Assembly (NCBI RefSeq): GCF_002775205.1
Contig: NC_036456.1
Span: forward strand, 5,037,463-5,101,462
Length of the DNA stretch: 64,000 nucleotides
Direction of reading: 5' to 3'
Source: Xiphophorus maculatus
Lineage: Eukaryota; Chordata; Actinopteri; Cyprinodontiformes; Poeciliidae
How positions within the stretch are numbered: position 1 is the stretch's first letter; every line of letters begins with the position of its first letter. Under the pieces are notes generated by a model. It saw only the letters and a program-made list of their open reading frames with translations. It was not told the DNA's origin and did no database searches. Below, one piece after another: positions 49,753 through 63,697 of this stretch. The translations under genes were made by a program, and so were the position numbers.

Positions 49753-49769
49753 CGTCCCTGGGTGGGCTC

Positions 49770-49809
<40 letters not shown>

Positions 49810-49819
49810 AATTGCGCCA
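49753..49819 (-). pseudogene. tRNA-Asn(GTT), 3' 67 nt, cut by transposon copy 1
   Basis: Nucleotides 8-74 of tRNA-Asn, including A box, GTT anticodon, B box and the 3' acceptor strand. The first seven nucleotides (GTCTCTG) lie on the far side of the inserted element. The element sequence that replaces them cannot pair with CAGGGAC, so a functional tRNA is not expected although both internal promoter boxes remain. Confidence 0.93.
49814..49819. repeat. Target-site duplication, left, copy 1
   Basis: GCGCCA, the same six bases as at 53308-53313. It is part of the tRNA A box. Confidence 0.9.
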
Positions 49820-49841
49820 AAATTGGGGAACAATAGTCTGC

Positions 49842-49906
49842 TTGGGGGGGGGAAGAAAGGAAGGAAGGGGGAAGAAAGGGAGGGGAGAAGAAAGGGGAAG
49901 AGTGAG
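49842..49906. repeat. Polypurine tract near the 3' end of copy 1
   Basis: About 65 bases almost purely of G and A on the + strand (GGGGGGGGGAAGAAAGG and onward). It is conserved in the long copy at about 55534-55592. It is followed by a B-box-like sequence, GAGTTCGATCC, at about 49924-49934. Confidence 0.85.
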
Positions 49907-50710
49907 GCCGATCCCAGAGTCGCGAGTTCGATCCTACCAGTCGCCATACTATGTTTTAGTGAAAAGATTTCCCACAATTAATGTTTAAGTGTTATGAAGT
50001 AACGGCTGTTTTTTTGTATCTTGAAAACATTTTAAATGCTTTTTTGTACAGATAGTGTAGTACTGTAAACTAAAACCCAACACTTGTCATAAAAGGCTTT
50101 CTTTTTAAAACTTTGAATTGCTTAATTAATTTTGCTTTTTTATTCTGATATATTCAAATTAATGTGTTAAATTATACTGTATACTATATACTTGATGTAT
50201 ATTTTAATGTCCTTAATCATACCCAGTGCTTATTTTCATTTTTCACAGCAAAACAGTGACTGAAACTAAAATTGCAAGTGTCTTTCCTAAAGTACTTTGA
50301 GTGAAGTGAATGATATCTTTTTTCTAGTGTATGCTTAAATTACCAATAATTCAGAATTTGAAGCAGCTAATATTTACTCACAAAAGACCATAGACCTTAT
50401 CGGTTTAAAAGAACCAAATATTTATTCAACAATTAAGACAGTGAATTAAACATTTTTAGTTAGTCCCAAAACATTGTAGCATTTGGATGCAACACATTTC
50501 CATTGAAGTCTCCCATTTCTTTTTCTTAACCAAGAAATTTGTGGTTTGCTGAAGGACTTAAATCCTTTTACTGTATGGTTTGTTGAATTACTTTGTGTAC
50601 ACAATGACAATAAGAATAAATATCTGTATCATTAACCCAAAACAAAATAAACACACTATGAACTAAATAAAACTTATATACAGTGAAGTTATTTAAAATA
50701 AAGAAAATGT

Positions 50711-52390
50711 TTATTTTTTCTTTTTAATTTGTTCCAGCCACTGCTCTTTAGTGAGACTTTCATTAGAGGGACAGTAAATTTGCCCTCTATATTGGCTGTG
50801 TCCTGTTTCAGCTATTCTAAACTGCCCGCATTTTTTGCATGTGTTGTGCAAAACTTTGCGAGTCAATTTTCGAGGTTCTCTACCAGGTTGAGCAGGGGCT
50901 GCACCTGGAGACTGTGCCTGCTCCTCTTTTCTTTGGACTACGATGGATATTGCACAGTCGGACAAAGATGGTCTCCACCAAGCGGCAGCAGTCTGGCCAT
51001 TGGGCAGATGGGGCTGGAGTGGTTAGAGCATGCCTCTTTACACTCTCAACCCCAGGAGTAAATTCTTGCCTCTTCTTGGGGGACCGAAACCTCCCAGTGT
51101 TCAATCTTTCTTGATGTCTTGCAGCAAATACCGTTCTCTGTTTATCAAACTCCAGCAGGTTCTGCCACAGAGCAACAATGCAGCTCACCTAAACAGGAAA
51201 ATAAAACAATTTTACATTAGGACAACAATATGCAAGTGAGGTGAAAGGCGTGTGCATGTCTGCAGCAAGCAACAATGCATGTTACTGACCTCCTGGTTGG
51301 TCAGCACCAGTGAGGTTTTGCTCCTTAGATCCACCAGATACTCAGCCAAGCTGTCAACTTTGTCCAGGCCTGGTACACCGGCTTCATCTAAACCCTGAGA
51401 AAACATAAATAATGTTGAAGTTATTTGAAGTTTTATTAAATTTTTCTTCAATTCTACAGCTTACTATGAATGCCCACCTCTGACATAGGCTCAGCAATGC
51501 CAGGCTGGGTGGAGGCAGCAGACAGGGTGGAGGGAGCTGGCTGGGTGGAGGGAGCTGGCTGGGTGGAGGGAGCAGACAGAGTGGAGGCAGCAGACAGGGT
51601 GGAGGCAGCAGGCTGGGTGGAGGCAGCTGACTGCCTAACGAGAAATAACGAGAAATGTACAATCATGTGAAGTATATACTTTATAAATCACTACATCAAA
51701 ATAAGCACAAGAAAATGTTTTGTTCAAAAACTATTATAGTTTGTTGCCAAGACAGAATCAATAATATAAAGTATTGAGCAAACAAACAAGAACATTTACC
51801 CTTGACAAAGATGGAGGGGACCTCAGGAAACAGCGGGTGGCTGTTGCTGTATCTCCAGAATTAGATTGTGAACCCACAGACTGTGGGGTCAAAGAAGGAG
51901 GTGCAGAAGGAGGCTGCAGTGCAGGCTACCAAAACAAAGATATTTTAAGTATAAAAGTCACCATTCACCAGAATTGCAAGAGACAAGACATAGCTTCAAA
52001 TTTGACTAAGAAGTGATTGTTATTAGATATTATTTTAAACCAGCTTACTTTAACAGTGTGAAAGCCACAGTCACAAGTGACAGACGCTCCAAAAAGGGTG
52101 GTCTGTCCCCGAACTTGCATGGGGCATTTTTCTATCTGAAACAGTGTAACATAATCTTATTAATGACAGCTACTCAAGTCTGTCCTTTTTTATAAACATA
52201 TCTACACACACAAGTGAATGAAACAGTGACTTCACTTTACCTTCTGATAGATATCATGCCATTTCTTCTGCCTTGGGGCTGGTCTATTCCCTGCATTGGA
52301 AGGCCAAACCCCAGTGCTGGCAAATGCCTTAAGCCTTGCCATCCACTCCCCATCCCCCATACCTTTGTGGCTCTTTGGCTTGGTGCTCAT
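50711..52390 (-). pseudogene. Remnant transposase coding region of copy 1
   Basis: Minus-strand exons equal to the first three of the long copy (from 52390, protein start MSTKPKSHKG) and to its last parts (51188 down to 50711) survive. Exons for the Cys-rich domain and the catalytic core are deleted. The remaining repeat exon has about 7 units against about 40 in the long copy. Near the end the frame runs into a stop (VSRCSPCSTW), so the C-terminal zinc motif is out of frame. No active enzyme is expected. Confidence 0.82.
51505..51640 (-). repeat. 18-bp coding minisatellite, short allele in copy 1
   Basis: About 7 units of the form GGCTGGGTGGAGGCAGCA, coding on the minus strand for six-residue repeats such as STQPAA and STLSAP. 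Confidence 0.9.
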
Positions 52391-52550
52391 CTGAAGATAA
52401 CATTGGGAATTAGCAGAATCAAATTCCATAAACTAATGATGCACTTTGTGCACAACTAACAATGGGTATGACATAAAAGCATTTAAAAGTAAAATCAAAG
52501 CCATAGTTTTCTGTGCTAATTATGATGAGGTAAAAAAAAAAAACTATAAC

Positions 52551-52580
52551 CCTCGATCGATCGATCGATCGATCGAGGTT
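52551..52580. repeat. CGAT palindrome in copy 1
   Basis: A run of CGAT units forming a long perfect palindrome, next to an A-rich tract. The same structure is at 62926-62957 in the long copy. Confidence 0.9.
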
Positions 52581-52985
52581 GGTCTATATATAGGTTGATA
52601 TCTATGTATGCATTTACATTTTAACTTAAAATGTTACTACTATATTATAAAATAAAATGTGTCCTTACTCTTGCACTCAGAACATGACATCATTATGTCG
52701 CCCTTTTATTTAACCCACAATATATTATTTTAGCTGATGTACAATTATAAATACGAAATCTGTTTGAACGACAACAGACAATAAACAATATTAATGGGTA
52801 CTCACAGCAAGATCGTTTAGGTCGAGAGATCAATGATGTGATGACGAATCCTTCTTCAACGAAGCTAGGCTACTGACATCTGACTTTCAGAATCTTCCAA
52901 CGGTTTTTATTTTTAAAAATAAAATTCGAAATTTGTTTTGTTTGTGGTGGTGGGGGGCGTGAGGGCGTCTGAGAGAGGGAGGGGT

Positions 52986-53205
52986 CACGGTGATTGGCCG
53001 ATTTCCATTGTGAGCGCGGACATTGATAGGTTCGCATGTCGCCACGGTGATTGGCCGATTTCCATTGTGAGCGCGGACATTGATAGGTTCTCATGTCGCC
53101 ACGGTGATTGGCCGATTTCCATTGTGAGCGCGGACATTGATAGGTTCGCATGTCGCCACGGTGATTGGCCGATTTCCATTGTGAGCGCGGACATTGATAG
53201 GCTCG
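52986..53205 (-). promoter_or_regulatory. Four 57-bp tandem repeats with CCAAT boxes (copy 1)
   Basis: Four nearly identical units, each carrying GGCCAATCACCG on the minus strand, just upstream of the first (non-coding) exon of the element. This arrangement looks like a repeated NF-Y-type promoter or enhancer. One unit differs (TTCTCATG in place of TTCGCATG), and the variant is in a different unit in copy 2. Confidence 0.75.
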
Positions 53206-53307
53206 GTCCATTATGAGGCGGTACGACATTGGCTAAACTGTTCAATGTGAGAATGGAGAGGGGCAAGCGCCATTGGAGGAGAAACACCGACTAACGTGAG
53301 CGAAGTA

Positions 53308-53320
53308 GCGCCACAGAGAC
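53308..53320 (-). pseudogene. tRNA-Asn 5' fragment (13 nt) right of copy 1
   Basis: GTCTCTGTGGCGC on the minus strand: nucleotides 1-13 of tRNA-Asn. Its last six are the target duplication GCGCCA (+ strand, 53308-53313). Confidence 0.92.
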
Positions 53321-53683
53321 ACTGAAATGCTACAGGTAGCCGTGACATAGATTCATCACATGTGCAACATTCTAGCCTCGCTTCTGAAATCCGTTGCAAT
53401 AATCATGGCAAAAGACAGAGTTGAGCGGTAAGATGATGGGGAATTGCTTCAAACTCAAAAACGGCTTTGCGACTCTCACCAAATATGTTAGATTTCTAAT
53501 CAGTCTTTACAATTCAAAGGTCGAGCAATCCATACGTTGCATTTGGTCAACTTCCTTTTTATGTGGTAATCACGTACTGTAGTGCGTATTTTAAAAGCAG
53601 CGGACAAGAATGGCAGATGAAATTCAACAGTCATTGAAAGTGAGCCAGACAACATCCTTTGTCCTATCTAGAATATTGACAGT

Positions 53684-53757
53684 CGTCCCTGGGTGGGCTC
53701 GAACCACCATCCTTTCGGTTAACAGCCGAACACGCTAACCAATTGCGCCACAGAGAC
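53684..53757 (-). tRNA. tRNA-Asn(GTT)
   Basis: A 74-nt cloverleaf with acceptor stem GTCTCTG/CAGGGAC (one G-U), anticodon loop CTGTTAA, T arm GGTGG-TTCGAGC-CCACC and discriminator G. Variant copy: the variable loop is AGGAT and the D stem has C to T at position 25, leaving a G-U pair. CCA is not encoded, as in eukaryotes. Confidence 0.93.
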
Positions 53758-54128
53758 AGAGACACTGAAATACTACAGGTAGCCGTGACATAGATTCATC
53801 ACATGTGCAACATTCTAGCCTCGCTTCTGAAATCCATTGCATTAACCATGGCAAAAGACAGAATTGAGCGGTAAGTTGATGTGGAAATGCGTCAACCACT
53901 TGCTTGCGCCTCTCGCCAAACCTTATAGATTTCTATACTGTCCATACCATAGTTCAAAGTCAAACGGTCGAGCAATCCAAACGTTGCATTTGGTCAACTT
54001 CCTTTTTGTGGTAATCACGTACTGTAGTGAGTATTTCAAAAGCAGCGGACAAGAATGGCAGATGAAATTCAACAATCATTGATAATGAGCCAGACAACAT
54101 CCTTTGTCCTATCTAGAATATTGACAGT

Positions 54129-54145
54129 CGTCCCTGGGTGGGCTC

Positions 54146-54185
<40 letters not shown>

Positions 54186-54202
54186 AATTGCGCCACAGAG
54201 AC
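54129..54202 (-). tRNA. tRNA-Asn(GTT)
   Basis: Consensus copy of the array: complete acceptor, D, anticodon and T stems, with A box TGGCGCAATTGG and B box GGTTCGAGCCC. Confidence 0.96.
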
Positions 54203-54565
54203 ACTGAAATGCTACAGGTAGTCGTGACATAGATTCATCACATGTGCAACATTCTAGCCTCGCTTCTGAAATCCGTTGCAATAATCATGGCAAAAGACAG
54301 AGTTGAGCGGTAAGATGATGGGGAATTGCTTCAAACTCAAAAACGGCTTTGCGACTCTCACCAAATATGTTAGATTTCTAATCAGTCTTTACAATTCAAA
54401 GGTCGAGCAATCCATACGTTGCATTTGGTCAACTTCCTTTTTATGTGGTAATCACGTACTGTAGTGCGTATTTTAAAAGCAGCGGACAAGAATGGCAGAT
54501 GAAATTCAACAGTCATTGAAAGTGAGCCAGACAACATCCTTTGTCCTATCTAGAATATTGACAGT

Positions 54566-54582
54566 CGTCCCTGGGTGGGCTC

Positions 54583-54622
<40 letters not shown>

Positions 54623-54639
54623 AATTGCGCCACAGAGAC
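54566..54639 (-). tRNA. tRNA-Asn(GTT)
   Basis: Identical in the tRNA part to the copy at 54129. Confidence 0.96.
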
Positions 54640-55000
54640 ACTGAAATGCTACAGGTAGTCGTGACATAGATTCATCACATGTGCAACATTCTAGCCTCGC
54701 TTCTGAAATCCGTTGCAATAATCATGGCAAAAGACAGAGTTGAGCGGTAAGTATGATGGGGAATTGCTTCAAACTCAAAACGGCTTTGCGACTCTCACCA
54801 AATATGTTAGATTTCTAATCAGTCTTTACAATTCAAAGGTCGAGCAATCCATACGTTGCATTGGTCAACTTCCTTTTATGTGGTAATCACGTACTGTAGT
54901 GCGTATTTTAAAAGCAGCGGACAAGAATGGCAGATGAAATTCAACAGTCATTGAAAATGAGCCAGACAACATCCTTTGTCCTATCTAGAATATTGACAGT

Positions 55001-55074
55001 CGTCCCTGGGTGGGCTCGAACCACCATCCTTTCGGTTAACAGCCGAACGCGCTAACCAATTGCGCCACAGAGAC
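55001..55074 (-). tRNA. tRNA-Asn(GTT)
   Basis: Complete cloverleaf. It carries the variable-loop change AGGAT like the copy at 53684, with a normal D stem. Confidence 0.95.
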
Positions 55075-55444
55075 AGAGACACTGAAATACTACAGGTAGC
55101 CGTGACATAGATTCATCACATGTGCAACATTCTAGCCTCGCTTCTGAAATCCATTGCATTAACCATGGCAAAAGACAGAATTGAGCGGTAAGTTGATGTG
55201 GAATTGCGTCAACCACTGCTTGCGCCTCTCGCCAAACCTTATAGATTTCTATACTGTCCATACCTTAGTTCAAAGTCAAACGGTCGAGCAATCCAAACGT
55301 TGCATTTGGTCAACTTCCTTTTTGTGGTAATCACGTACTGTAGTGAGTATTTCAAAAGCAGCGGACAAGAATGGCAGATGAAATTCAACAATCATTGATA
55401 ATGAGCCAGACAACATCCTTTGTCCTATCTAGAATATTGACAGT

Positions 55445-55461
55445 CGTCCCTGGGTGGGCTC

Positions 55462-55501
<40 letters not shown>

Positions 55502-55511
55502 AATTGCGCCA
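55445..55511 (-). pseudogene. tRNA-Asn(GTT), 3' 67 nt, cut by transposon copy 2
   Basis: Nucleotides 8-74 of tRNA-Asn; the break is at exactly the same position as in the tRNA at 49753. A and B boxes are intact, and the acceptor stem 5' strand is lost to the element. Confidence 0.94.
55506..55511. repeat. Target-site duplication, left, copy 2
   Basis: GCGCCA, repeated at 63685-63690. Confidence 0.9.
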
Positions 55512-55533
55512 AAGTTGGGGAACAATAGTCTAC

Positions 55534-55592
55534 TTGGGGGGGGGAAGAAAGGAAGAAAGGGGGAAGAAAGGGAGGGGAGAAGAAAGGGGAAG
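55534..55592. repeat. Polypurine tract near the 3' end of copy 2
   Basis: G/A-only stretch of about 60 bases on +, matching 49842-49906, followed by a B-box-like GAGTTCGATCC at about 55617-55627. Confidence 0.85.
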
Positions 55593-56399
55593 AGTGAGGC
55601 CGATCCCAGAGTCGCGAGTTCGATCCTACCAGTCGCCATACTATGTTTTAGTGAAAAGATTTCCCACAATTAATGTTTAAGTGTTATGAAGTAACGGCTG
55701 TTTTTTTGTATCTTGAAAACATTTTAAATGCTTTTTGTACAGATAGTGTAGTACTGTAAACTAAAACCCAACACTTGTCATAAAAGGCTTTCTTTTTAAA
55801 ACTTTGAATTGCTTAATTAATTTTGCTTTTTTATTCTGATATATTCAAATTAATGTGTTAAATTATACTGTATACTATATACTTGATGTATATTTTAATG
55901 TCCTTAATCATACTCAGTGCTTATTTTCATTTTTCACAGCAAAACAGTGACTGAAACTAAAATTGCAAGTGTCTTCCTAAAGTACTTTGAGTGAAGTGAA
56001 TGATATCTTTTTTCTAGTGTATGCTTAAATTACCAATAATTCAGAATTTGAAGCAGCTAATATTTACTCACAAAAGACCATAGACCTTATCGGTTTAAAA
56101 GAACCAAATATTTATTCAACAATTAAGACAGTGAATTAAACATTTTTAGTTAGTCCCAAAACATTGTAGCATTTGGATGCAACACATTTCCATTGAAGTC
56201 TCCCATTTCTTTTTCTTAACCAAGAAATTTGTGGTTTGCTGAAGGACTTAAATCCTTTTACTGTATGGTTTGTTGAATTACTTTGTGTACACAATGACAA
56301 TAAGAATAAATATCTGTATCATTAACCCAAAACAAAATAAACACACTATGAACTAAATAAAACTTATATACAGTGAAGTTATTTAAAATAAAGAAAATG

Positions 56400-56405
56400 T
56401 TTATT
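56400..56405 (-). terminator. Polyadenylation signal overlapping the transposase stop codon
   Basis: AATAAA on the minus strand is formed by the last lysine codon, the TAA stop and the next base. The same is seen in copy 1. Confidence 0.5.
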
Positions 56406-59400
56406 TTTTCTTTTTAATTTGTTCCAGCCACTGCTCTTTAGTGAGACTTTCATTAGAGGGACAGTAAATTTGCCCTCTATATTGGCTGTGTCCTGTTTCA
56501 GCTATTCTAAACTGCCCGCATTTTTTGCATGTGTTGTGCAAAACTTTGCGAGTCAATTTTCGAGGTTCTCTACCAGGTTGAGCAGGGGCTGCTCTGGGAG
56601 CCAGAGCAGGGGCCAGAGCAGGGGCCACAGGATAAGCATGTGGAGGAGGGGTGGAGAGGTTCCACAAACTCTGTTGCTGTTGGGTAGTGAGGATAACAGA
56701 TCCCTGTGGTGCCATTGGAGTAATTGCCACTAGCTGAGGCCTTTTGGGTGGGGCAGGGAGAAGCTGCCGCTGTCCTGATGGATTTGTCCCATCAGTGAAT
56801 TGTAGCTTTCTTTTAATTTTGACTGCCCCACAGTGTTGGATGGTAGCCTATATGTATGCAGTGGCCCTGAATGTGGTACGCCGTAATGCGGGCGTATATT
56901 TGCAGGCAGAAGCGGGTCAGCAGCTACAGAAAACTGGCTGGGAAGGTTTAGCCCTTGAAGTACCACAGCGGTCTCTTGCCTTTTGACCCTTCTGTTATGC
57001 CACTGAACCAGGGTGGTGTAGCTAACATCCACTAGCTGCAAATGTGTCTGCCCCATCACAGCTCCATTCGCCAGAACGAGCTGCCTGATCTTTCTATAGT
57101 CTTGTAGGATCAAATCCCACCTGGAGACTGTGCCTGATCCTCTTTTCTTTGGACTACGATGGATATTGCACAGTCGGACAAAGATGGTCTCCACCAAGCG
57201 GCAGCAGTCTGGCCATTGGGCAGATGGGGCTGGAGTGGTTAGAGCATGCCTCTTTACACTCTCAACCCCAGGAGTAAATTCTTGCCTCTTCTTGGGGGAC
57301 CGAAACCTCCCAGTGTTCAATCTTTCTTGATGTCTTGCAGCAAATACCGTTCTCTGTTTATCAAACTCCAGCAGGTTCTGCCACAGAGCAACAATGCAGC
57401 TCACCTAAACAGGAAAATAAAACAATTTTACATTAGGACAACAATATGCAAGTGAGGTGAAAGGCGTGTGCATGTCTGCAGCAAGCAACAATGCATGTTA
57501 CTGACCTCCTGGTTGGTCAGCACCAGTGAGGTTTTGCTCCTTAGCTCCACCAGATACTCAGCCAAGCTGTCAACTTTGTCCAGGCCTGGTACACCGGCCT
57601 CATCTAAACCCTGAGAAAACATAAATAATGTTGAAGTTATTTGAAGTTTTATTAAATTTTTCTTCAATTCTACAGCTTACTATGAATGCCCACCTCTGAC
57701 ATAGGCTCAGCAATGCCAGGCTGGGTGGAGGCAGCAGACAGGGTGGAGGGAGCTGGCTGGGTGGAGGGAGCTGGCTGGGTGGAGGGAGCAGACAGAGTGG
57801 AGGCAGCAGACAGGGTGGAGGGAGCAGACAGGGTGGAGGCAGCACGCTGGGTGGAGGGAGCTGGCTGGGTGGAGGGAGCAGACAGGGTGGAGGCAGCACG
57901 CTGGGTGGAGGGAGCACGCTGGGTGGAGGGAGCAGGCTGGGTGGAGGGAGCAGACAGGGTGGAGGCAGCACGCTGGGTGGAGGCAGCAGGCTGGGTGGAG
58001 GCAGCAGGCTGGGTGGAGGCAGCACGCTGGGTGGAGGCAGCAGGCTGGGTGGAGGCAGCACGCTGGGTGGAGGCAGCTGACTGAGTGGAGGCAGCACGCT
58101 GGGTGGAGGGAGCAGGCTGGGTGGAGGGAGCAGGCTGGGTGGAGGGAGCAGGCTGGGTGGAGGGAGCAGACAGGGTGGAGGGAGCAGACAGGGTGGAGGC
58201 AGCACGCTGGGTGGAGGGAGCACGCTGGGTGGAGGGAGCAGGCTGGGTGGAGGGAGCAGACAGGGTGGAGGCAGCACGCTGGGTGGAGGCAGCAGGCTGG
58301 GTGGAGGCAGCAGGCTGGGTGGAGGCAGCAGGCTGGGTGGAGGCAGCTGACTGGGTGGAGGCAGCACGCTGGGTGGAGGCAGCTGGCTGGGTGGAGGCAG
58401 CTGGCTGGGTGGAGGGAGCTGGCTGGGAGGAGGATTCGAGATGTGATGTAGCTGAGAAAAGGGTCTCATCGTCTAGCTCTGATACTAGAAAGTCCAAAGC
58501 TTCTTCGTCCACAAAGCCTTCATCTTCCTCTGCTACATTAGCCTCCACATCTTCCAGCAGAACATCTGTCTCTTCTGAGTCAGGCTGGGGTTTCAGTGGC
58601 TTTCCTGTTTGACTTAGAAGGTAGTCAACGCCCAGTAGCTCACCTATGGAAAATCAAACATATTGATAGTAAAACATTCCAAAACATGTTACATATTATT
58701 GATCTTTTTATACTATAGTTTATCTTAAACTGTTTATCCTTCACATATTTCATTTGTACCTGTGTACTTTGAAGGGGGCATAAATTGTGGGACGTACTCT
58801 CGTCCCAGCACCTTCAAGCTGTTCTGATTTATGGACTGAGTCATGTCTCCAGCATATGTCAGAAGAGACGATGGTTTGTTGGTCACTGCTGCAGAACCCC
58901 GATCCTGATTCCATCTATTCAGGCCTTCCAGGAGGTAGAGCTGGAAATTCAGTAAGTTTGCACTGGTTCCTGTAAAAAAAGGAAAAAAACAACACATCAT
59001 ATTAATGTCTTTGAAACAATACTGGTTGATCCAGTTTTGCAAAAAATATACAGTAAAGTGTTGTAGTCATGTTAGAAAGCGACTTACCTGGAATAAACCT
59101 GTTTAAATGACAATGAAATGACTCCAGGGATGTAGAGCCTCGTGAACAGCGATAACGTGTCAACTTGATTCCGCTCTTGTTGACACTGCCCACCTCAGTG
59201 TACAACTGAATCCCTGCAACATCCTGAATGCATTTCACATGCCGTTTTTGGACACCCCAGATGTGTTTTATCCTGACTTCATCCAGTAAGGGAACCCCCA
59301 TCAAATCTCTCCCTTTTGGACCATTCAGCTCCTCCAGCAGTCGTTCAATAAGGACAGTAGTGATGTCCTCTCCCCGTGTCCTCCTACGACAGAAATTACT

Positions 59401-62400
59401 CAACTCCTTCTTGGTTATCTGCCTGTCCACCATGGTGTTGGTTATACCTGGCCTCTGTTCCTGCTGGAGCTGCCTTTCTTTCGCTCGTCGAAGAAGGTCA
59501 AGGTCCCCTGCATCCCACTCAAAAATGCAGGAGGACAGTGCCCGCATGAAAGCAGGATACAGAGGGTGGGCATCCGTGGTACAACCAACAGCCAGCCTCC
59601 GCATAAAGTGCCAAATGTCCAGGCGAATGTAAATATCTGGCCACCCTCCAAACCTGGCCTGCAGCTTGCTGAGGCCTTCACTAACACAGCAGCCACAGTC
59701 CACATACAGCACCTTTGGAGGTGCAGCCCCAGCCTGGCGGTACCGCTCCATCAGTCCTGCAGCCATTTTGTCCAGTCCTGGACCCTCCTGGACAGTCAGG
59801 ACACTATTCAATATTTGGCCCAGCTCATTGCTGACTGACGACACCCACAGAGCCGTTCCTTTGCTGTGGCCAGCCAGCTTTTTGGTGATCTACAATAGAA
59901 AGTGTGGAATTAAATCTTGCCGTTTCTCATGTCTACAGAAACCACTGCCGGCTGTGTATTTCATAACATTTTCAATGTACTTAGAACAATAAACTTTTCA
60001 CAAGTTTAATTGTTTGTGAAACAGAAAAAAAGTTATCCCAAACATTTTTAAAATTATTAGCGTTTTAAATTTAGTAGTGTACAACTTTTTTTCCAAGTAG
60101 GATATAATAATCAATATTATTATTGTCAAGTTTTTTGCTCTCTTTAAACCACCTCAGCTTCTGCCCAAACTTGAAAAAGCTTGCTTCCCTCAAAGAAATG
60201 CAGGAACCACTCATTTCAGCGACATCTTTTATTCATCTTTTCTTTTTGTCTTTAGATTAGTTCAATTAACAGTGTAAGACCACCATGATTTTGCAGAAGT
60301 AGTCACAGAGAGTCACAGAGCAGTTTGAAAACCTACAAACAAATGAAACAAAATCAATTACAGATCACAATGAACTAATGAACTAGTTTTCCAGGTAATG
60401 TTAATCTACTTTTAAGTGAACAGTGAATGAACAAACAAACTACATTCCACACACATAAATCCCATTTCATCACCAAGGCTAATTTGGTCTTCTGAATGCA
60501 GATTAAATGATATAAACTGTGCATAATGTCCAGTTCCTACCAGTGGTGTCTTTGTGGAAGCTTGAAGCTGAGGCTCTTTGTCTGAGCACAGGTGTGCCAA
60601 GTTACCTTATAGACTTCAGATAGGCCTGATTGAAAGGGAGGGGTGCGCTTGATTCTCTGTGATGTGTGTGCCAGTTGGGTGGAGATAGTAAATGCACTCA
60701 CAAATGTACCATTTGCTGTTTTAACTTGACAATTATCATTACATGGTTACTAACCTTTTTGGTGGAGTCCAGCTTCAGAACTGTCCCCAAGGTGGAGGTG
60801 ATGCTGGCTTTTATGTGTTCTATGCGTGACAGAATATCTCTGCCATACACTGACAACAACCAGCGATCAGTGGGGATGTCAGCTGGTTCTGGGGGCTCCT
60901 GGCACACCACAGGGAAAAGGCTGGGTCTATTTACAAAGTTAGCGCACTCCTCCAGATAGTGCCCCAACCTGTTCAGCCACTCCTCCCCGTGGTTTTCTTT
61001 CAGCTGCTTCAGCAGCCGTGCTGAACTGTTGCCCTGTGTCCTGTCTCTCATCAGCCTGATCACTCGTATGTCACAAGCATACCTGGAAGGCAGATTAACA
61101 AAGTATTTATTTTGCAGTTACATTTGCATGTAATGTAATATCTTCATTCCTTCAGTTAGCATTTTACTAAATGTTTTACTCACTTTTGGGTGAGGATGAG
61201 CCGAAATAATTTCTGGTGCGGCAAGTCCAGCTGGTCTCGGATGCTCTGGGATGTTGATAGATACGTGAGATTACACCCGCTGCACCTGAGTGTCTCCGTC
61301 ACAAGGAGGTAATACCTATCAATATCCAGGACTTTCCGAGCCCTCTTGTGGATGCCAGCACCTGTAAGATGATTCCCACAAGTTTTGCAGAACACCCTGA
61401 CCTTCCACTGATGGTAGGGCATCCATACGAGGAGCCGATGTGAAAAAAACCTCTCAGGTGTTGGCACCTGATGGTAAATGAGGGCCGGCGCAGGAGGCTC
61501 GTACCACAGCTTTAAATCTGGGCGCAGTTTGCCAGATTTAAAGAGGGTATTTGAGATCCATCTTTGATCCTGCACAGGGATGGTTTTCCTCATCTCACTC
61601 GGTAACCAGAAAGAAGCTGCATTATCACCTGCAGCTGGTTGTAACAGAGACGTTGAAGGCTGTTCCTAAAAACAACAGAACATAAATATGTTTGAAAACA
61701 GATATCTTAGAACTGCTTTATTTTAATGAATATACAATGCTGTACTCACAGATGCAACTGTCTTGCCGGAGTGTGTCTGGGAGGATGGAGCAACACTAGG
61801 GCTCCTCACAGAGGGTGGAGAAGGACTTGGGCTCCTCACGGAGGATGGAAAGGGACTTGGGCTCCTCACAGAGGATGGAAAGGGACTTGGGCTCCTCACA
61901 GAGGATGGAGAGGGACTTGGGCTCCTCACAGAGGATGGAGAGGGACTCGGTGTCTTCCGGGCCACCAAGTTTGGCTTCACTGAATCCGAAAGAGAACCCC
62001 CAAAATAGGACTTAGTGAACTGAAACGAGAAATGTACAATCATGTGAAGTATATACTTTATAAATCACTACATCAAAATAAGCACAAGAAAATGTTTTGT
62101 TCAAAAACTATTATAGTTTGTTGCCAAGACAGAATCAATAATATAAAGTATTGAGCAAACAAACAAGAACATTTACCCTTGACAAAGATGGAGGGGACCT
62201 CAGGAAACAGCGGGTGGCTGTTGCTGTATCTCCAGAATTAGATTGTGAACCCACAGACTGTGGGGTCAAAGAAGGAGGTGCAGAAGGAGGCTGCAGTGCA
62301 GGCTACCAAAACAAAGATATTTTAAGTATAAAAGTCACCATTCACCAGAATTGCAAGAGACAAGACATAGCTTCAAATTTGACTAAGAAGTGATTGTTAT

Positions 62401-62767
62401 TAGATATTATTTTAAACCAGCTTACTTTAACAGTGTGAAAGCCACAGTCACAAGTGACAGACGCTCCAAAAAGGGTGGTCTGTCCCCGAACTTGCATGGG
62501 GCATTTTTCTATCTGAAACAGTGTAACATAATCTTATTAATGACAGCTACTCAAGTCTGTCCTTTTTTATAAACATATCTACACACACAAGTGAATGAAA
62601 CAGTGACTTCACTTTACCTTCTGATAGATATCATGCCATTTCTTCTGCCTTGGGGCTGGTCTATTCCCTGCATTGGAAGGCCAAACCCCAGTGCTGGCAA
62701 ATGCCTTAAGCCTTGCCATCCACTCCCCATCCCCCATACCTTTGTGGCTCTTTGGCTTGGTGCTCAT
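56401..62767 (-). CDS. Dada-like transposase, 12 coding exons, apparently intact
   Basis: Proposed exons on the minus strand are 62767-62618, 62512-62426, 62302-62177, 62019-61750, 61665-61184, 61082-60755, 59889-59088, 58969-58760, 58643-57694, 57610-57506, 57404-57121 and 56593-56401. All junctions are GT/AG with matching phases, giving 3987 nt and about 1328 residues. N-terminus: a small KWHDIYQK domain and a CP..CDCGFH motif, then a Ser-Pro repeat. Next is a Cys-rich domain (FCKTCGNH, LRCSGCNL) of the DUF6729 kind. A catalytic core follows with candidate acidic residues in VLKLDSTKK, LYVDCGCC and STSLESFHCHLNRF, plus RLDIWHFMRR. Then come an acidic segment, about 40 STQPAA-type repeats, and a C-terminal motif CKKCGQF...GHSQY...YC. 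The start is the ATG directly after a TTCAG acceptor. The last intron (57120-56594) is my inference; without it the C-terminal Cys motif is out of frame. Predicted role: nuclear excision and insertion at tRNA-Asn genes. Confidence 0.85.
57720..58432 (-). repeat. 18-bp coding minisatellite, long allele in copy 2
   Basis: About 40 in-frame units coding for STQPAA, STQPAP, STQRAA and STLSAP variants within a single exon of the transposase. Variants are arranged in larger blocks (for example the run around 57840-57990 recurs around 58195-58300), so it expanded by unequal exchange of multi-unit blocks. Confidence 0.95.
61797..61952 (-). repeat. 30-bp coding repeat (SPSPSPSSVR)
   Basis: About five tandem 30-bp units giving a Ser/Pro/Arg-rich disordered stretch in the fourth coding exon of the transposase. 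Absent from the deleted copy 1. Confidence 0.9.
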
Positions 62768-62925
62768 CTGAAGATAACATTGGGAATTAGCAGAATCAAA
62801 TTCCATAAACTAATGATGCACTTTGTGCACAACTAACAATGGGTATGACATAAAAGCATTTAAAAGTAAAATCAAAGCCATAGTTTTCTGTGCTAATTAT
62901 GATGAGGTAAAAAAAAAAAACTATA

Positions 62926-62957
62926 AACCTCGATCGATCGATCGATCGATCGAGGTT
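62926..62957. repeat. Perfect 32-bp CGAT palindrome in copy 2
   Basis: Starts AACCTCGATCG and ends with its complement CGATCGAGGTT. It lies in the first intron of the element, beside an A11 run. It can form a hairpin or cruciform. Confidence 0.93.
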
Positions 62958-63362
62958 GGTCTATATATAGGTTGATATCTATGTATGCATTTACATTTTA
63001 ACTTAAAATGTTACTACTATATTATAAAATAAAATGTGTCCTTACTCTTGCACTCAGAACATGACATCATTATGTCGCCCTTTTATTTAACCCACAATAT
63101 ATTATTTTAGCTGATGTACAATTATAAATACGAAATCTGTTTGAACGACAACAGACAATAAACAATATTAATGGGTACTCACAGCAAGATCGTTTAGGTC
63201 GAGAGATCAATGATGCGATGACGAATCCTTCTTCAACGAAGCTAGGCTACTGACATCTGACTTTCAGAATCTTCCAACGGTTTTTATTTTTAAAAATAAA
63301 ATTCGAAATTTGTTTTGGTTGTGGTGGTGGGGGGCGTGAGGGCGTCTGAGGGAGGGAGGGCT

Positions 63363-63582
63363 CACGGTGATTGGCCGATTTCCATTGTGAGCGCGGACAT
63401 TGATAGGTTCGCATGTCGCCACGGTGATTGGCCGATTTCCATTGTGAGCGCGGACATTGATAGGTTCGCATGTCGCCACGGTGATTGGCCGATTTCCATT
63501 GTGAGCGCGGACATTGATAGGTTCTCATGTCGCCACGGTGATTGGCCGATTTCCATTGTGAGCGCGGACATTGATAGGCTCG
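63363..63582 (-). promoter_or_regulatory. Four 57-bp tandem repeats with CCAAT boxes (copy 2)
   Basis: Each unit contains GGCCAATCACCG and CCTATCAATGTCCGCGC on the minus strand. They sit about 100 bp inside the element's 5' end and upstream of the non-coding first exon, the expected place of the transposase promoter. Spacing is exactly 57 bp. Confidence 0.77.
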
Positions 63583-63684
63583 GTCCATTATGAGGCGGTA
63601 CGACATTGGCTAAACCGTTCAATGTGAGAATGGAGAGGGGCAAGCGCCATTGGAGGAGAAACACCGACTAACGTGAGCGAAGTA

Positions 63685-63697
63685 GCGCCACAGAGAC
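63685..63697 (-). pseudogene. tRNA-Asn 5' fragment (13 nt) right of copy 2
   Basis: GTCTCTGTGGCGC on the minus strand, nucleotides 1-13 of the tRNA split by copy 2. It includes the right target duplication (63685-63690). Confidence 0.93.

Follow-up and report, generated by a model that had tools for sequence, protein, structure and literature searches.

A probable Dada transposon family inserted at the A box of tRNA-Asn and other tRNA genes in Xiphophorus maculatus

DNA transposons that insert at a specific target are rare and are of interest as insertion tools. Among them, the Dada transposons are defined by a transposase with a DDE catalytic triad, a DxxH motif, an N-terminal CCCC and a C-terminal CCHC zinc finger, by the presence of introns, and by target duplications of 6-7 bp within small RNA genes (PMC3706591). 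Kojima listed 121 families in 2022, with target-specific vertebrate Dada reported from ray-finned fish only, and described Dada-tN, which inserts in tRNA-Asn at nucleotides 8-13 (TGGCGC); lineages of the Dada-tN type can target several tRNA types (PMC8869645). The term Dada-tN was found in that paper only, among open PubMed Central papers. Here, we analyse a stretch of 64,000 nucleotides from Xiphophorus maculatus (NC_036456.1, positions 5,037,463 to 5,101,462; hereafter the window), in which two elements lie within tRNA-Asn(GTT) genes. These elements are very probably copies of a recently active, A-box-targeting Dada family that resembles Dada-tN and Dada-tR.

The two elements, copy 1 (3488 bp) and copy 2 (8173 bp), each split a tRNA-Asn(GTT) gene and are flanked on both sides by TGGCGC, corresponding to tRNA nucleotides 8-13, with the same orientation relative to the gene. 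Both 3' halves are scored as tRNA by Rfam, starting at model position 8, and at either copy the joined flanks minus one hexamer yield a complete tRNA-Asn(gtt). The split genes are thus real, their coordinates are accurate to the base (Table 1), and the hexamer is followed by AA, as in the target of Dada-tN. A preliminary description of the window had reported both insertions, with a 6-bp duplication of the A box and a fixed orientation; the junctions bear this out for the two copies. Chance is not a serious alternative, because identical junctions recur across the genome at one tRNA position and TGGCGC is rare in the window, with eight occurrences in positions 1-49700 on both strands together.

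A 301-bp left-end query recovered at least 17 left ends (40 of 71 candidates scored), and a right-end query recovered 15 right ends. The left flanks of 13 of the 17 copies were readable and were tallied, with L022, L023, L025 and L026 outside the tally. Five of them are tRNA-Asn (L011-L014 and an eroded piece at L027), four of these being units of tRNA-Asn arrays; six are other tRNA genes, namely Arg-TCT (L015), Lys (L016, L017), Thr-TGT (L018), Met-CAT (L020) and Ser-GCT (L024), and two are tRNA-like (L019, L021). The 15 right flanks include five from tRNA-Asn (L011, L012, L013, L017, L022) and single cases of Lys-CTT (L016), Thr (L018), Met (L020), Ser (L024), Arg (L023) and a tRNA-like sequence (L019), while that of L015 is another tRNA-like 5' half, which we take to be Lys-like. 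The names of halves that could not be joined (L014, L017, L022, L023, L027 and the right side of L015) are presumptive, drawn from their sequence. Wherever a tRNA half is recognisable the orientation is uniform, with the 3' part of the gene next to the left end of the element and the 5' part next to its right end. Flanks were joined for 14 copies, of which 11 were readable on both sides, and eight of these fold as tRNA (three Asn and one each of Arg, Lys, Thr, Met and Ser, the Arg site at L015 using a 5' half from another gene); joined L017, L019 and L021 do not. Thus a target-specific, Dada-type DNA transposon, as the preliminary description proposed, is supported by the recurrent junctions together with the motifs described below, but its further suggestion that the element is aimed at tRNA-Asn fails, since eight of the 13 left flanks lie outside tRNA-Asn genes.

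At two of these loci the flanks belong to different genes. L015 and L023 are both on contig C5, in opposite orientation and with their right ends about 1.7 kb apart; the Arg 3' half stands at L015 and the matching Arg 5' half at L023, so that an inversion between the two would explain the separation. A native gene for the right half of L015 gave no match in a genome search. At L017, a Lys 3' half is joined to a unit of a tRNA-Asn array. Two more occupied tRNA-Asn units are found on C72, an unplaced contig of 17 kb, one of them cut by the contig end; they may belong to the array in the window or to another haplotype.

The transposase gene agrees with the published definition of Dada in its motifs, its putative introns and the duplications that accompany insertion, which argues for Dada identity (PMC3706591). 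In all four full-length copies (copy 2, L013, L017 and L020; 8131-8438 bp, against a Dada range of 4.7-11 kb) the order is CxxC-x31-CxxC, LDSTKK, VDCGCC, RLDIWH, LESFH and CxxC-x9-H-x8-C, distributed over separate open frames. The predicted DDE triad comprises LDSTKK, VDCGCC and LESFH, present in 4/4 copies; VDCGCC is the putative second D by its position before the DxxH motif only, while the first D and the E align with a second Dada family at L062. The DxxH motif (RLDIWH, 4/4) aligns with RLDIFH of L062, and the N-terminal CCCC and C-terminal CCHC fingers are likewise found in all four. Compared with Dada-U6_DR, the spacing of the C-terminal finger is identical and that of the N-terminal finger differs (Cx4C-x34-CxxC there). 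A search for DUF6729 (PF20499) gave 22 hits in the present genome and no hit in 14 control genomes. Duplications of 6-7 bp inside a multicopy small RNA gene, as expected of Dada, are the rule here, with some exceptional copies.

The family at L062 (828-8266 on C23), which we used as a control for the motifs and the insertion point, lies inside tRNA-Ser at nucleotides 8-13 (TGGCCG), as published for Dada-tS (PMC8869645), and its protein pieces are 32-43% identical to those of the present family. Near it lies L024, an internally deleted copy (type N2) of the present family in another tRNA-Ser gene, one base off.

Table 1. Features of the two occupied tRNA-Asn genes and of the transposase gene in copy 2 (window coordinates).
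Feature	Position	Strand	Basis or remark
Copy 1, tRNA-Asn(GTT) nucleotides 8-74	49753..49819	-	Junction reading, Rfam; left hexamer 49814-49819
Element copy 1, 3488 bp, internally deleted, type N1	49820..53307	-	Flank reading; breakpoints common to 9/15 typable copies
Copy 1, tRNA-Asn nucleotides 1-13	53308..53320	-	Junction reading; duplicated hexamer 53308-53313
Four intact tRNA-Asn(GTT) array genes between copies 1 and 2	53684-53757, 54129-54202, 54566-54639, 55001-55074	-	Uninterrupted targets
Copy 2, tRNA-Asn nucleotides 8-74	55445..55511	-	Junction reading, Rfam
Element copy 2, 8173 bp, full length	55512..63684	-	Transposase gene in separate open frames
C-terminal open frame, CCHC finger CxxC-x9-H-x8-C	56401..56730	-	Shorter than in three other full-length copies
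Open frame, putative second D (VDCGCC), DxxH (RLDIWH), E (LESFH)	59002..59844	-	Motifs
Open frame, end of DUF6729 and putative first catalytic D (LDSTKK)	60698..61063	-	PF20499, E-value 2.2e-24; motif
Open frame, DUF6729 and N-terminal CxxC...CxxC zinc finger	61180..61593	-	PF20499, E-value 3.8e-52, positions 2-145 of 229; motif
Copy 2, tRNA-Asn nucleotides 1-13	63685..63697	-	Junction reading; duplicated hexamer 63685-63690

In copy 2, the open frame that surrounds the zinc finger in the last exon (window 56401-57404) is 148 codons long, versus 334 codons in the three other full-length copies, and the gene of copy 2 may on this account be interrupted. Window 57690-58430, in an open frame of the transposase region, holds a long array of short repeats (judged by eye at about 18 bp) that varies between copies. 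The element ends have features of their own. The two 200-bp ends share no exact inverted word of at least 7 bp, which fits a Dada element without terminal inverted repeats; the subterminal inverted repeats of the Dada-U6 and Dada-U1 type were accordingly not found. Such repeats, common to the target, have been reported, as far as the available accounts go, from no lineages other than U6 and U1, and we do not take them as defining tRNA lineages. A further TGGCGC, the target hexamer, lies within the right end at window 63644-63649, 36 bp away from the terminus, and in a similar way the Dada-tS-like element at L062 carries CGGCCA close to its right end; the internal word is possibly bound by the transposase, chance being the alternative. 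At L025 (C6:1674930-1679674), the terminal 41-42 bp of the right end, starting at the internal GCGCCA, are tandemly repeated, each unit beginning with GCGCCA or GCTCCC, with eight matches to the terminal motif. A T-loop-like word seen by eye in the left end suggested a functional B box for RNA polymerase III (pol III), but stricter patterns found none and this candidate was dropped.

The range of targets raises the question of what is recognised. Insertion at the same coordinate in several tRNA types with differing hexamers is what might be expected if TFIIIC or TFIIIB, as pol III factors present on tRNA genes, guided the element and the transposase did not itself read the A box. Against this, the insertion point is precise to the base inside the gene, and Kojima argues for recognition of primary sequence from the similarity of targets between related families (PMC8869645). 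We therefore consider guidance by a bound factor unlikely, though a competitor to be taken seriously.

The flanking hexamers carry further information where the native gene differs from TGGCGC. Intact genes have TGGCGC in 39/39 cases for Met, TAGCTC in 1/1 for Lys-CTT and TAGCTC in 3/3 for Thr-TGT. The exact repeat occupied at L019 had no match in a genome search, and its native hexamer is deduced from near relatives, with TGGCTC in three of four and TGACTC in the fourth. Four insertions have another native hexamer and two readable flanks that derive from a single gene or repeat; L021 (TGGCGG left, TGGCGC right, native site undefined) and the two chimeric loci stand outside this tally. L016 has TGGCGC on the left and the native TAGCTC on the right, L018 has the native TAGCTC on the left and TGGCGC on the right, and L019 has TGGCGC on the left and the native-like TGGCTC on the right. 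Thus TGGCGC is present on exactly one side in three of the four, counting the one with a deduced native hexamer, on neither side in one and on both sides in none. At the Met gene a replacement would leave nothing visible, and the Arg native hexamer is reported to agree with TGGCGC as well (PMC8869645). Hexamer replacement as such is not new: it has been reported by Kojima for Dada-tA and Dada-tY, sometimes on one side (PMC8869645; PMC3706591), its mechanism was called unknown in 2013 (PMC3706591), and an old flank travelling with the element was suggested in 2022 (PMC8869645).

One-sided TGGCGC could also stem from subsequent gene conversion or from transposition of one end only, with no donor hexamer being carried. 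One-ended events have been proposed for Dada-tL (PMC3706591), and L015 and L017 are chimeric. However, a one-ended event does not explain L016 and L018, because both flanks of each join to one folding tRNA, and the difference from the native gene is confined to the hexamer. We regard such an origin as rather improbable.

We infer that a DDE transposase from full-length copies would recognise the DNA of the A-box region itself (TRGCNNAR..., most often TGGCGCAA) in one orientation, rather than a bound transcription factor, would join the element ends at a 6-bp stagger over tRNA nucleotides 8-13, and would move internally deleted relatives in trans. An excised end would keep the donor's 6-nucleotide flank as an overhang, like the circle spacer of the IS256 family, and this overhang would fill the 6-nucleotide target gap, giving a donor/target heteroduplex with a mismatched hexamer on each side. 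Repair or replication would then resolve each side independently, so that the donor hexamer could end up on one side, on both or on neither; where donor and target hexamers are the same (Asn and Met here, Arg according to PMC8869645), no change would be visible. In the IS256 family, strand transfer just outside the second end produces a circle in which a short piece of donor flank lies as a spacer between the two ends; in ISCth4 this spacer measures 6-8 bp, integration is at its most efficient with 6 bp, and the target duplication is 8 bp (PMC7780238). Taken by itself, the step with a donor overhang seems a reasonable possibility, though not one that we would favour outright. The whole proposal is more doubtful and is put forward tentatively: a single family of Dada would recognise pol III A boxes in general and bring the donor flank into the new site in heteroduplex form, as the mark of a copy-out/paste-in (circular) pathway like that of IS256 in an animal DNA transposon.

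Several points weigh against our reading. The Dada assignment is one by motifs and target, compared with the published description, and the second D motif was not found by pattern in the piece of the L062 family that was compared. Three of the 15 right flanks (L021, L025, L027) are not recognisable as tRNA halves, that of L025 lying beyond its tandem repeats, and two loci combine halves of different tRNA genes. The one-sided replacements number only three, one of them with a deduced native hexamer, and the Ser insertion at L024 has no replacement and a duplication shifted by one base to nucleotides 7-12. In addition, the lengths of spacer and target duplication in ISCth4 are not always equal, which makes the analogy a loose one (PMC7780238), and no circle is reported for Dada in the parts of the Dada literature covered.

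The family has moved recently, and the two copies in the window very probably record more than one event. Typing covers 15 copies, with L014 and L026 left out: four are full length, nine are of type N1 (copy 1 included) and two of type N2 (L024, L027). The N1 breakpoints 1089/1607 and 6513 are common to all nine N1 copies, and the fourth edge, in a variable repeat, is at 2332 in L011 and L025 and at 2356 in the other seven. N1 copies on C13, C3, C24 and C5 are identical at 23/23 informative sites and have no private substitutions (2018 columns), which points to recent activity. In an alignment tree of the 15 copies over the same columns, copy 2 falls within the full-length group and copy 1 outside it. 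One might suppose that both window copies descend from a single insertion, followed by duplication of the occupied unit and internal deletion. The two do share an array and have right flanks with 98.7% similarity; copy 1 lacks the differences common to the other N1 copies and its place in the tree has a support of only 0.274, so that the N1 deletion might have arisen there. However, its breakpoints occur in eight copies at other loci, the two copies group separately, and the left flank of copy 1 is only 57.7-60.5% like the five other array units compared in the window, whereas that of copy 2 is 99.3% like the unit at 54127. The copies thus do not go back to simple duplication of one insertion, in line with the two insertions of the preliminary description, and a single origin is very unlikely, although unequal exchange within the array may have played a part and copy 1 may be an early N1 copy. 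A new lineage strictly specific to tRNA-Asn, suggested by the copies in the window and the two on C72, all of which occupy tRNA-Asn units, is rejected as scarcely credible, since the same family is found in Arg, Lys, Thr, Met and Ser genes and Dada-tN, with the same target, position and hexamer, was already published in 2022 (PMC8869645).

Near-identical copies in different tRNA genes amount to a recent natural experiment, in which the range tolerated by the transposase can be seen. The one-sided hexamer changes, in turn, open the published "unknown mechanism" behind flank replacement to testing.

The closest described systems include Dada-tN, which shares with the present family the target TGGCGCAATTGGTTAG in tRNA-Asn, nucleotides 8-13 and the 6-bp duplication (PMC8869645). 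The comparison with Dada-tN/tR is one of targets: Arg, Asn and Met are named for those lineages (PMC8869645), whereas the present family extends to Lys, Thr and Ser genes, with the hexamers TAGCTC and TGGCCG. Dada-tR, Dada-tK, Dada-tY and Dada-tS insert at nucleotides 8-13 of tRNA genes as well, and Dada-tY resembles our elements in its reported replacement of the flanking hexamer (PMC8869645); in the portion of the account available, these lineages come from fewer tRNA types, for example Tyr and Phe for Dada-tY_CaAu. Dada-U6N1_DR is, like N1 and N2, an internally deleted, target-specific derivative of a full-length Dada, but its target is the U6 small nuclear RNA and not a tRNA gene (PMC3706591). 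A further comparison is with the IS256 family, for example ISCth4, whose members are bacterial and, unlike Dada, have AT-rich targets, 8-bp duplications and terminal inverted repeats (PMC7780238). They share a DDE transposase with Dada, which is reported to be distantly similar to IS256, and in their circle a short spacer derived from the flank is carried along.

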